Assembly (NCBI RefSeq): GCF_022848905.1
Contig: NZ_JAFIRA010000029.1
Span: forward strand, 1-48,578
Length of the DNA stretch: 48,578 nucleotides
Direction: 5' to 3'
DNA from: Thermostichus vulcanus str. 'Rupite'
GTDB taxonomy: Bacteria; Cyanobacteriota; Cyanobacteriia; Thermostichales; Thermostichaceae
Under the pieces are notes generated by a model that was given only the letters and a program-made list of their open reading frames with translations, ran no database searches and was not told the origin of the DNA. The translations under genes and the position numbers were made by a program. Below, piece by piece: positions 39,065 to 46,044 of the stretch (its first letter is position 1; each line of letters opens with the position of its first letter).

Positions 39065-39284
39065 TAGGCACGGGGAGAATGTCAAAACAGTCAACAATAC
39101 TTGTGTCCTTACTTGTGTCCTTGAACTTCAAGGTTGAGGATCTGCGGGGTATGTATGCGGTGTTCCTTCCGGAGCAGGTGGCTGTTAGCCCGGAAGCGGA
39201 TCCTTAATTTCCCCCACCCGGCGCTGTAAAACACCCTCCCGTAAACGAGACCTGCTGCCCTCAGAGACAGCTTCCTGTTTGACC

Positions 39285-39326
39285 GTAAAATATATTGAAA
39301 AATATATTGATATATGGTTATATACT
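39285..39326 (+). promoter_or_regulatory. AT-rich promoter and dyad operator of petC-sqr
   Basis: TTGAAA (39295-39300), a 17-base spacer and TTATAT (39318-39323) form a plausible sigma-70 promoter. Within the spacer, ATATAT-TG-ATATAT is a near-perfect dyad, and AATATATT occurs twice. AT-rich dyads of this sort are typical operators for ArsR/SmtB-type repressors, including sulfide-responsive ones. No such regulator gene is in the window, so this is inference. Confidence 0.45.
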
Positions 39327-39390
39327 TGATAAAGTGAATTTATGACAAGATCTTCGGTTTTTCCTCACCCTGGCTTCTGGGAGGTGGTCT

Positions 39391-39927
39391 ATGGATTCAG
39401 CCCTCGTTCCTTTTGAAGGGCCTTCGCTGCCTCGTCGCCGTCTGCTGAACTTCTTAGCCGGTTCGACGCTGGCGGTAGTGACGGGATCCACTCTGTATCC
39501 GCTGGCCCGTTACCTGACTCCACCGCAGGAGGGATCCGCGGATGGCGCCGGGGTGGCCAAAGATAAGCTTGGACATCCCATTCCAGCGGCACAACTTTTG
39601 GCAGAACCGCCGGGGACTCGCGCTCTGGTGGCGGGGCTGGCAGGGGAGCCCACTTATCTCACGGTGACCGAAACGGGATCGTTGGATCCGATGGGCATTG
39701 TCGATAACTGCACCCACCTGGGATGTACCTTTCCCTGGAACCCGAACACGCAGGAATTTCAATGTCCCTGTCATGGATCCCGCTATGCGGCTGACGGATC
39801 GGTGCTCCGTGGCCCTGCCCCCCTGCCCTTGAAATTAACCCGTGTCGAGGTCAGGGATGGGCTGATTTGGTTGTCTCCTTGGTTGGATCTGGATCCGCGT
39901 ACTGGCAAGCAACCGTGGTGGGTATAA
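39391..39927 (+). CDS. petC: Cytochrome b6f Rieske iron-sulfur protein (PetC-type)
   Basis: The 178-residue protein has an N-terminal P-R-R-R-L-L-N-F-L-A-G segment and one membrane helix (about 17-42), as in thylakoid-targeted Rieske proteins. The 2Fe-2S ligands are in C-T-H-L-G-C (107-112) and C-P-C-H-G-S (125-130). The end R-T-G-K-Q-P-W-W-V matches PetC. It passes electrons from plastoquinol to cytochrome f. Unlike the main petC, it is not joined to petA; instead an SQR gene follows 12 bases later. It therefore looks like a secondary isoform (PetC2-like), though I cannot exclude that it is the only copy. Confidence 0.9.
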   Translation: MDSALVPFEGPSLPRRRLLNFLAGSTLAVVTGSTLYPLARYLTPPQEGSADGAGVAKDKLGHPIPAAQLLAEPPGTRALVAGLAGEPTYLTVTETGSLDPMGIVDNCTHLGCTFPWNPNTQEFQCPCHGSRYAADGSVLRGPAPLPLKLTRVEVRDGLIWLSPWLDLDPRTGKQPWWV

Positions 39928-39939
39928 GGAGCGTTTCCC

Positions 39940-41244
39940 ATGGCTCATGTGATCGTCATTGGCGCAGGGTTGGGAGGCTTACCCACTGCCTATGAATTGC
40001 GGCATCGCTTACCCCAGGGATCCCATCAGGTGACCCTCATTTCCAATACCCCCACGTTTACCTTTATTCCCGCCCTCCCTTGGGTGGCTTTGGGTCTCAA
40101 GTCCCTGGCGGATATTCAGGTGCATTTGCCCCAACGAGTCGAAAAAAGGGGGATCCGCTTCGTTAAGGGGGCCGTGACCGATTTGCAACCCCAGGCACAC
40201 ACCCTTAGGGTGAATGGCGAGTCTCTTAGCTACGACTACTTGGTGGTGGCCACCGGGGCGGACTTGGCCTTGGAGGCTGTTCCTGGCTTAGGGCCGGAGC
40301 AGGGGTTTACCCAATCGGTGTGTACTCCTCACCATGCCCACTGGGCCCAAAGGGCTTGGGCAGACTTTCTCCAGCAACCAGGGCCTTTGGTGGTAGGAGC
40401 GGTGCCGGGAGCCAGTTGTTTTGGCCCGGCCTATGAATTTGCGCTGCTGGCGGATTGGCAATTGCGCCAGAAAGGGCTGCGGGATCAGGTGCCAATTACC
40501 TTTATCACCCCTGAACCTTACGCTGGGCATTTGGGCATTGGGGGCATGGCCCATTCCGCAGCATTGGTCAGCCGGTTGATGGCCCAGCGGCAGATCACGG
40601 TTTTGGAGAATACCGCCATCGCTCGCATCGAAAAGAATCATCTTTATTTGAACCACGGGGAAGGGATCCCCTTTGCCTACGCCATGCTTCTGCCACCCTT
40701 TCGGGGGGCTCCATTCCTGCGAGAAACCCCAGGTTTGACCGATCCACAGGGCTTTCTGCCCGTGACTCCCACCTACCAGCATCCTGACTTTGACACCCTC
40801 TACAGTGTGGGGGTTGTCTCCCAATTGGCGCCTCCTGAGAAGACTCCTTTGCCCGTGGGGGTACCCAAAACCGGCCAAATGACTGAGGCAATGGGGATTG
40901 CAGTGGCCCACAACATTGCTCTGCGCTTGGGAGTGCTGCAAGGGGATCCGGTGGCCCCGACGCTTGAGGCCATCTGCTTTGCCGACTTTGGAGATACGGG
41001 CATTCTCTTTTTGGCGGATCCCGTATTACCCGTGCCGGAACTGGGGCACCGCCGCCGCGCCATTGCCCTGCAGGGGCCTTGGGTCAGTTGGATGAAAACA
41101 GCCTTTGAGCAGTATTTTTTGGCCAAGATGCGCTGGGGGTGGGCGGTCCCCTGGTTTGAGCGGCTCAGCCTGCGGGGGGTGGGATTATCGCTGGTGGAAC
41201 CTCTCCCCAAGCCGGTGGGCGGTTTAACCTCCCCAGGAGTTTGA
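39940..41244 (+). CDS. sqr: Sulfide:quinone oxidoreductase-like flavoprotein
   Basis: A 434-residue FAD protein with the dinucleotide fold V-I-V-I-G-A-G-L-G-G-L-P at residues 4-15 and the second block V-V-A-T-G-A-D at 102-108. Three cysteines lie at 128, 160 and 346; the spacing matches the three redox cysteines of bacterial SQR. The segment G-A-S-C-F-G-P-A-Y-E-F and the later E-P-Y-A-G-H-L-G-I-G-G are typical of the family. SQR oxidises sulfide to polysulfide or sulfur and reduces quinone at the membrane. The C-terminal half ends in an amphipathic region that could bind the membrane. The ATG at 39940 follows AAGGAGC. Co-transcription with petC suggests electrons go to plastoquinone. Some relatives are NADH dehydrogenase type 2, but the cysteines argue for SQR. 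Confidence 0.87.
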   Translation: MAHVIVIGAGLGGLPTAYELRHRLPQGSHQVTLISNTPTFTFIPALPWVALGLKSLADIQVHLPQRVEKRGIRFVKGAVTDLQPQAHTLRVNGESLSYDYLVVATGADLALEAVPGLGPEQGFTQSVCTPHHAHWAQRAWADFLQQPGPLVVGAVPGASCFGPAYEFALLADWQLRQKGLRDQVPITFITPEPYAGHLGIGGMAHSAALVSRLMAQRQITVLENTAIARIEKNHLYLNHGEGIPFAYAMLLPPFRGAPFLRETPGLTDPQGFLPVTPTYQHPDFDTLYSVGVVSQLAPPEKTPLPVGVPKTGQMTEAMGIAVAHNIALRLGVLQGDPVAPTLEAICFADFGDTGILFLADPVLPVPELGHRRRAIALQGPWVSWMKTAFEQYFLAKMRWGWAVPWFERLSLRGVGLSLVEPLPKPVGGLTSPGV

Positions 41245-41327: not shown

Positions 41328-42665
41328 ATGAAAACGCAAATTGGTGTACGTCGGCAGCCAACCACCTCAGGCTGGAATTGGGGCAGGGTGGGGTTCGCAC
41401 TGTTGCTCCTCTCGGTGGGTGGGGTCGGCGGATGGGTACTGGGATCCCGAACCCAATCGGCTCGGACAGGGGTGGTTCCCGACGCTGCTGTTCAAGAAGG
41501 TGTGCCCCTTCCCTTCAAGACCGTGGCAGTTAACCCGCAATCGGTCAGTAGCGAGCGGATCCTGGTGGGCAGCTTGGAAGCGGTGGAGAGTGTCAGCCTC
41601 AGCAGCCGCATTGTCGGTCGAATTCTGGAGTTTCCGGTTCAAGAGGGCCAGCGGGTTGCGGCCGGATCCCTGATTGCCCGTTTGGATGTGAGTGATGTCC
41701 AAGCGGCTTGGCAACAAGCCCAGGCCCAACGACAACAAGCCGAGGCGCAACTGCAACAGGCTCAAGCCAATCGGATTGCCGCCCAAGCTGGACTCAAGGT
41801 GGCGGAAGCGCTGCTTCACCAAACACAGGCCCAAAAGCAAGAAGCAGAAGCGGAACTGAGCGAGGCACAACTCCACCAACAGCGGATGCAAGGGTTACAA
41901 GCCGAAGGGGCGATCACGCAGGCCCAGTTGGATCAAGCCAGTACGCGGGTGGCCGTGATTCTGGCCCGCATTGCCCAAATCGAGGCAGGGATCCAGCAGG
42001 CAGAACAAGGGATTGCCCAAGCCCAAGCCCAAATGGCCCAAGCAGAAAGTGGGATCCCCCAGGCTCAAGCAGCCATTGCCCAGGCCCAAGCTGTGATCGA
42101 CCAAAGCCAAGCCAATTTGGAGTATGGACGCCTTTTGGCGCCCTTCGATGGGGTGATCACCCGCAAGTATGCAGAGGTGGGATCCCTGGCTGGGCCGGCT
42201 CAGCCCCTGGTTCATTTGGAGAGTACCGAGCGGTTGCGATTTTCTGTAACGGTGCCTGAATCTCAGGTATCTCAGATTCAGGTGGGACAGTCGGTACCCA
42301 TTGCTTTCGATAGCCTGAATCAGACCGTGGAGGGAACGATTCAGCAGATCATCCCCAGTGCGGATCCAGTCGCCAGAACTGTGGTGGTGAAAGTAGACGT
42401 GCCAGCCCTAACAGGAGGGATCCCGGGATTGCTGGGGCGACTGACTGTGTTGGGGCCAACCCGACAAGCCCTACTCATCCCACAGGAGAGTGTGGTGGAA
42501 CAGTTTGGGATCACTGGAGTGTATCGGTGGGTGGCAGGAAAGGCCGTTTTTACTCCCGTTGTGATTGGATCCCGCTATGGAAATCGGGTGGAAATTCACG
42601 CAGGGATCCAGCCGGGAGAACAGGTGATTCAGGACGCGACCGCTGTTCAGATAGGATCCCTGTGA
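41328..42665 (+). CDS. HlyD/RND-type membrane fusion (periplasmic adaptor) protein
   Basis: The 445-residue protein has a membrane anchor at about 20-40 and an N-terminal lipoyl-like half (R-I-V-G-R-I-L-E-F-P-V-Q-E-G-Q-R-V). A very long Gln/Ala-rich coiled-coil hairpin (about 125-265) leads to the second lipoyl half (G-V-I-T-R-K-Y-A-E-V-G-S-L-A-G-P) and a beta-barrel region. Such proteins link an inner-membrane pump to an outer-membrane channel. No RND or ABC pump gene is in the window next to it, so its partner is encoded elsewhere. ATG 41328 is the start. Confidence 0.9.
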   Translation: MKTQIGVRRQPTTSGWNWGRVGFALLLLSVGGVGGWVLGSRTQSARTGVVPDAAVQEGVPLPFKTVAVNPQSVSSERILVGSLEAVESVSLSSRIVGRILEFPVQEGQRVAAGSLIARLDVSDVQAAWQQAQAQRQQAEAQLQQAQANRIAAQAGLKVAEALLHQTQAQKQEAEAELSEAQLHQQRMQGLQAEGAITQAQLDQASTRVAVILARIAQIEAGIQQAEQGIAQAQAQMAQAESGIPQAQAAIAQAQAVIDQSQANLEYGRLLAPFDGVITRKYAEVGSLAGPAQPLVHLESTERLRFSVTVPESQVSQIQVGQSVPIAFDSLNQTVEGTIQQIIPSADPVARTVVVKVDVPALTGGIPGLLGRLTVLGPTRQALLIPQESVVEQFGITGVYRWVAGKAVFTPVVIGSRYGNRVEIHAGIQPGEQVIQDATAVQIGSL

Positions 42666-44763: not shown

Positions 44764-46044
44764 ATGTCCTACCCTTCTTGGTCACTCTCCCGCCAAAAGT
44801 CCTCTGGCTGGCAGATGCTTTGGGGTTTGTCTCTCACACTGATGGTAAGTGCCTGCGGGGGTGGGGGTGGGTCTCGCTCTGTTCCCCCGATTCCGGCTCC
44901 TTCTACGGGACGAATTGAGGGATCCCATTTTGATGACTTGAACGGCAATGGCCTACGGGAGCCGGGAGAAGCAGGTCTACCGGGCATTACGACTTTTCTG
45001 GACTTGAATGGCAATGGCCGCCTCGATGCGGGGGAACCCAGCGTAACCAGCGATGCCAGTGGTAATTTCCGCTTTTTTGACCTGCCCCCAGGTACCTATC
45101 GAGTCACCGCCATTTTGCCTCCAGGGCGGATCTTTACCACACCGCGTTCTGGCCTACAGCTAGAGCAAATCGTGGGTGGGAGCAATGCTCCAGCAGGGGC
45201 GTTTCCCTGGATGGTGGCCTTAGTGCTGGCAGATCGACAGGATCCTTTCCAGGGGCAGTTTTGTGGGGGATCCCTGATTACACCGGAGTGGGTGATCACG
45301 GCAGCCCACTGTTTTTTCAACGATCAGGGTCAGCAGGTGGTGAACGCCCAAAACCTGGATCTGTTGCTGGGTACCAACCGCCTAGAAGTGGGATCTGGCC
45401 AGCGCATTCGCGCTGCTCAAATCGTCATCCATCCCAGCTACAATCCACAACTGGGAGAACCAGGGGGAAATGACATTGCCTTGGTACGCCTTTCTCAGCC
45501 GGTTTCTTTGGCTACCCTACCTCTTGTGCAGCCCAATCAACTGAATCTGACCGCCCCAGGCACTGCTGCCACCATTATCGGCTGGGGAGCGACTCAGCAA
45601 AGAACTGCAGGTCAGGAACCGAGTGGATTCCCAAGGGATTTGCAACAGGCCACCGTCCCCATCGTTTCCAATGCCGAGTGTAACGCGCCCCAATCCTACG
45701 ACGGCACCATTCTCGACAGCATGTTGTGTGCTGGATTTCCCCAGGGGGGAGTGGATTCCTGTCAGGCAGATAGTGGTGGCCCTTTGGTTGTGCCCAATGG
45801 AAATGGTTTTGCGCTGGCCGGGATCACCAGTTTTGGGGTGGGTTGCGCCTTGCCCAATTTTTTTGGGGTGTATACGCGCGTGTCCAGTTTTGCGGGTTTT
45901 GTGCAATCGGTGATTGGCAGCACTCCAACCCCTAGCCCCACTCCAACAGGCACTCCGACCCCCGGGGCAACCGCTTCATTCACTGTGAATTTGGTTGGGG
46001 GTGAGGTGGTTTCGGGTCTTAACTTTGGTAGCCGCGCTCGGTAA
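44764..46044 (+). CDS. Trypsin-like (S1) protease lipoprotein with SdrD-type domain
   Basis: The 426-residue protein starts with a signal peptide and lipobox-like L-M-V-S-A-C-G-G-G. Residues about 48-125 form an SdrD-type B domain with two calcium-loop-like D-L-N-G-N-G-x-x-x-x-G-E motifs. A chymotrypsin-fold domain follows: I-V-G-G, T-A-A-H-C (His), N-D-I-A-L-V (Asp) and C-Q-A-D-S-G-G-P (Ser). Paired cysteines match the three classic trypsin disulfides. The usual Gly before the D-S-G-G-P (G193) is Ala here. A Pro/Thr-rich tail and a further 20 residues end the protein. It should be membrane-anchored and face the periplasm or outside. Confidence 0.88.

Follow-up and report, generated by a model that had tools for sequence, protein, structure and literature searches.

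We analyzed a 48,578-nucleotide stretch of the Thermostichus vulcanus str. 'Rupite' genome (contig NZ_JAFIRA010000029.1), referred to here as the window, in which the gene for a Rieske protein of the cytochrome b6f complex (petC2) is followed on the same strand by a gene for a sulfide:quinone oxidoreductase (sqr) (Table 1). The close spacing reported in the initial annotation is confirmed by the two open reading frames, which are separated by 12 bases (39928–39939), and the putative ribosome-binding site of sqr overlaps the petC2 stop codon. An HlyD-type adaptor gene follows sqr and is probably part of the petC2-sqr unit or its neighborhood, because sqr precedes hlyD in other cyanobacteria. 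Upstream of petC2, the region containing two candidate promoters has a G+C content of 20%, compared with 56% for the window, and the second candidate has its −35/−10 spacer spanned by a candidate operator. This upstream motif and the linked hlyD extend the picture given by the initial annotation. Elsewhere in the window, the forward strand encodes a secreted-looking protein at 44764–46044 with SdrD_B-like and trypsin domains (PF00089, 5e-57), which is unusual in a cyanobacterium. The sequence GGATCC occurs at 171 places in the whole window, compared with 19 expected from dinucleotide shuffles, a palindrome excess of the genome-wide type.

Table 1. Features of the petC2-sqr locus, in window coordinates
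Feature	Coordinates	Strand	Details
AT-rich promoter region	39279..39335	+	Candidate sigma-70 sites TTGACC-N18-TATATT and TTGATA-N17-TAAAGT; consensus match only
Candidate ArsR-type operator	39305..39330	+	TATTGATATATGGTTATATACTTGAT; core TATATGGTTATATA at 39311-39324
petC2, b6f Rieske isoform	39391..39927	+	178 aa; PetC2 signature CTHLGC-TF-PWN; domain matches, tree
Ribosome-binding site of sqr	39926..39931	+	AAGGAG; read from sequence
sqr, type I sulfide:quinone oxidoreductase	39940..41244	+	434 aa; Cys128/160/346
hlyD, HlyD/RND-type periplasmic adaptor	41328..42665	+	83 bases past sqr

The petC2 product contains the N-terminal PetC anchor and the Rieske boxes CTHLGC and CPCHGS, matches the Pfam domains TM_PetC and Rieske, and scores 268.6 bits against the NCBIfam equivalog NF045928 (cut-off 250). 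The initial annotation had asked for a second petC beside petA in the same genome (G000), and such a gene is present on contig C31, directly ahead of petA; it is 43% identical to the window copy, which is therefore an isoform, PetC2. A third, small Rieske gene is located on contig C66. In a tree of 43 PetC2-type and 9 PetC1 sequences, the PetC2/PetC1 branch is supported at 100/100 and the window sequence falls in PetC2. The residue pair immediately following the second box 1 cysteine (Cys112) is TF in all 43 PetC2 proteins compared and VV in 21/21 PetC1 proteins. A redox shift caused by a Tyr to Phe change in box 2 was considered and dropped, as Phe occurs in just 2 of 43 PetC2 proteins and the window protein has Tyr. 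Separately, locus L081:4055-5167 encodes a fusion of PetC2 with a C-terminal domain of ~190 residues, as in Acaryochloris marina AM1_0450.

The second gene encodes a true type I SQR with the FAD fold, for which sulfide-dependent quinone reduction is predicted. Its product aligns end to end with the structures of the A. ferrooxidans and A. aeolicus SQRs (E about 1e-99). The three redox cysteines listed in the initial annotation are indeed present, line up with cysteines of 3sz0, and are invariant in 21 cyanobacterial SQRs. Phylogenetic analysis places the window SQR in the cyanobacterial type I clade, as sister to the SQR of G006, which belongs to another genus of the same family (99/98). An NDH-2 identity, raised earlier as a possible objection, is ruled out by the structure alignments, the cysteines and the tree. 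No further type I SQR was found in the window genome; the next-best match there is NDH-2-like by sequence and is a separate gene. Judged by sequence relatives with solved structures, the folds of both PetC2 and SQR are settled.

We surveyed the phylum Cyanobacteriota for both genes. Type I SQR was found in 35 of 386 sampled genomes, and PetC2 in 34 of the 185 genomes with PetC hits, the latter count being made by hand from the score gap. Both proteins occur in 15 genera, SQR only in 11, PetC2 only in 8, and neither in 51 (odds ratio 8.7, p = 5.5e-5; p = 3.7e-4 with picocyanobacteria excluded), although some dependence among genera makes these p-values optimistic. petC2 and sqr are no more than 3 kb apart in 9 of the 19 sampled genomes with both, representing 6 of 15 genera, and linkage within ~3 kb is also seen in named Acaryochloris, Nostoc, Pseudanabaena, Oscillatoriaceae, Spirulinaceae and CCP5 loci. 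Linked pairs adopt codirectional, divergent and convergent orientations. Their distribution forces at least seven gains or losses of linkage on the SQR tree and six on the PetC2 tree, which rules out a single origin. As a separate observation, L252 (G013) carries PetC2 ~3.5 kb from another SQR type, 29% identical to that of the window, and away from its type I SQR.

As to conservation of the adjacency in relatives, which the initial annotation had proposed as a check, the linkage recurs across the phylum but is not kept within the genus. The adjacency is absent from every other examined genome of the same genus and family as the window, and petC2 itself was found in no other examined species of the genus. 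G001 retains a 44-residue sqr remnant only, upstream of the same hlyD and with a TAG inside a longer match. G006 carries sqr and a once-frameshifted petC2 on separate contigs, and G008, from the same order, contains a decaying island (L254) in which PetC2 is intact, sqr and D1 persist as remnants, and the neighboring flavoprotein is broken. Overall, the arrangement is recurrent but easily lost. Its absence from close relatives and the separate contigs of G006 would fit a chance or selfish adjacency with no common regulation, in which petC2 and sqr work separately. We regard this explanation as very improbable, given the 12-base gap with its overlapping ribosome site, the repeated linkage across genera, and the decayed petC2-sqr remains in G008.

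Genes for alternative D1, ArsR, DUF3122, rhodanese, DUF302 and HlyD proteins recur near linked pairs elsewhere, and the window hlyD matches this pattern. Some of the alternative D1 proteins have E at position 170 and have lost their C-terminal ligands. PetC2 unaccompanied by SQR is also often found near D1 genes, as in L170, L180, L184 and L189. The window genome itself encodes a 'rogue' D1 (L221; G000:C8:27981-28877) with E at position 170 and changed ligands, in which MHPTSW replaces MHPFHM. It is the only D1-like protein found in this genome; the other two PF00124 matches look like D2, so a standard psbA seems to be missing from the assembly.

We identified an operator-like motif, TACTATATAGTTATATA, that many cyanobacteria carry 5' of sqr, petC2, alternative psbA and arsR. 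When up to one mismatch is allowed, an AT-rich palindrome, TATATA-N2-TATATA, is present in 21 of 95 regions upstream of sqr or petC2, compared with 0.57 in shuffles, while the ArsR consensus ATCAA-N6-TTGAT occurs in none of the 95. With a position matrix, the motif was detected upstream of 15/33 SQR, 9/33 PetC2, 6/12 alternative D1 and 4/22 ArsR genes, and of 22/633 other genes; the sample contains near relatives, and the matrix was trained with the SQR and PetC2 upstream regions, the alternative D1 and ArsR genes being outside the training. Furthermore, among 30 ArsR loci collected separately, 11 carry the motif, compared with 1 of 214 tiles from the background (p = 1.7e-10). Loci with arsR divergent from a persulfide dioxygenase (PDO) gene carry it in 8 of 10 cases; these ten include every one of the six species in the genus of the window, with scores of 19.5–22.7.

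The site in the window scores 21.1 with a matrix trained without the window, the runner-up in the window scoring 7.9, and it is weaker than the Nostoc-type sites (21 vs 35 bits). Its core has a single exact occurrence in the whole window genome. In the genome-wide scan, which was by pattern only, a pattern built from both window-genome sites matches exactly twice: ahead of petC2-sqr and in the PDO/arsR spacer. With one mismatch allowed, an unrelated spot on C21 is also matched; the matches on C3 and C21 look like chance.

The PDO/arsR locus, on contig C13, also offers a candidate repressor. It comprises a persulfide dioxygenase gene (E 2e-56 to 4ysb), a divergent arsR, and the motif in the spacer between them, so that a two-cysteine ArsR is encoded together with a sulfur gene, as is characteristic of SqrR/BigR regulons. 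The ArsR protein carries Cys26 in the sequence QILCEL and C-terminal cysteines at positions 80, 84 and 88. This arrangement resembles that of E. coli YgaV, where C31, in ILC31ML, and C98 form a tetrasulfide pair (PMC12170894, PMC9774250). Against the curated BigR model NF040642 the protein scores 42.8 bits, below the cut-off of 155, and we therefore call it BigR/SqrR-like rather than BigR. The described SqrR, BigR and YgaV regulons are similar in that an ArsR-family dithiol sensor governs sqr or persulfide dioxygenase (PMC12170894, PMC9774250). The operators differ, however: the known SqrR site, ATTC-N8-GAAT, is not matched by the window site, which, like the cyanobacterial motif in general, is an AT-rich TATATAnnTATATA-like palindrome, and the RexT site, ATTCG-N15-CGAAT, is likewise different. 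A review from 2026 on redox regulators in cyanobacteria names RexT as the sole ArsR protein, and the word sulfide is absent from its text. Two different ArsR subfamilies occur near the loci concerned, which makes the C13 protein a candidate rather than an established repressor.

These features suggest a model, built from sequence comparisons, to which we assign a probability of roughly 0.6: the petC2-sqr operon, probably including hlyD, would be derepressed by an SqrR/BigR-like sulfide or persulfide sensor. The repressor would be an ArsR-family thiol sensor of this kind, most likely the C13 protein, and a rise in sulfide or persulfide would release it from the candidate operator. SQR would then oxidize sulfide and deliver the electrons into plastoquinone, while the housekeeping PetC1 in the cytochrome b6f complex would be exchanged for PetC2. 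The PetC2-containing complex would pass the electrons on to photosystem I or to a terminal oxidase at times of low oxygen and photosystem II inhibition.

The main competing explanation holds that PetC2, SQR and alternative D1 form a general low-oxygen photosynthesis module, with low oxygen or redox state as the signal and sulfide incidental. In Synechocystis, slr1181 (psbA1) and slr1185 (petC2) lie in one cluster; like the A. marina cluster AM1_0448-0451, it is induced at low oxygen (PMC5295598). The A. marina petC fusion AM1_0450 rises 16-fold (log2 4.03) under micro-oxic conditions along with psbA1, Synechocystis PetC2 is reported as produced at low oxygen, and petC2 induction was seen without added sulfide. 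Both clusters link a PetC2 orthologue to psbA1 and a rhodanese gene and are without sqr, whereas the window unit is without psbA. The D1-adjacent PetC2 genes without SQR and the motif ahead of half of the alternative D1 genes point in the same direction. In addition, a similar site precedes PetC2 in genomes without type I SQR (e.g., L180 and L193), and the signal may therefore be low oxygen, not sulfide. Conversely, the motif is also found at sqr genes of genomes without PetC2, which, with its position between persulfide dioxygenase and arsR, indicates a sulfur signal. Sulfide or persulfide may also accumulate in micro-oxic cultures, and the low-oxygen and the sulfide/persulfide signals may be the same switch. 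On balance, we consider the low-oxygen explanation rather unlikely, at clearly lower odds than sulfide or persulfide derepression.

Another view would limit the role of the unit to sulfide detoxification, with electrons passing to oxygen via terminal oxidases and PetC2 serving as a spare subunit that better resists sulfide or persulfide. The SQR of Synechococcus PCC 7002 is reported to detoxify sulfide (PMC7042703), and the VV to TF replacement lies beside a cluster ligand of PetC2. However, the PCC 7002 enzyme also sustains light-driven CO2 fixation (PMC12466478), and we judge a purely protective role improbable.

The initial annotation had tied an alternative PetC to sulfide oxidation as a dedicated subunit. 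The single unit, the co-occurrence and the shared operator-like site uphold the tie. The word dedicated is too strong, because type I SQR is missing from 15 of the 34 sampled genomes with PetC2, the tie of PetC2 to alternative D1 is equally close, and petC2 is induced at low oxygen. The accompanying claim that no PetC-SQR module had been described was mistaken. In metagenome-assembled genomes of Thermostichales, the same order of cyanobacteria, petC2 had already been described as flanking type I sqr by Tan et al. 2024 (PMC11304991), who propose a role in hypoxic electron transport; the arrangement is very probably identical to that in the window, and the text consulted gives no operator, regulon or phylum-wide count. 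Similarly, Grim and Dick 2016 (PMC5061849) found psbA of groups 2 and 3 near sqr in cyanobacteria, and, as in our survey, sqr near low-oxygen D1 genes and arsR; petC next to sqr is not mentioned. Thus, the petC2-sqr pairing and the proximity of sqr to low-oxygen psbA and arsR are already published. The operator-like motif shared by sqr, petC2, alternative psbA and arsR appears to be new: no description of TACTATATAGTTATATA as a shared operator was found in the open-access literature searched, though a subscription paper may exist.

More broadly, and at slightly less than even odds, TACTATATAGTTATATA could be the operator of a cyanobacteria-wide sulfide/persulfide regulon with a near-universal ArsR-type repressor, switching SQR, PetC2 and alternative D1 together, with the petC2-sqr operon as one compact form. 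If so, the whole electron chain would be refitted for sulfide. One conserved operator joining sqr, petC2, alternative psbA, arsR and persulfide dioxygenase would offer a directly testable answer to what alternative Rieske and D1 proteins are for, namely a sulfide-driven refit of photosynthesis. It would also put forward a candidate for the sensor by which cyanobacteria switch to anoxygenic photosynthesis, with implications for their life in sulfidic oceans.
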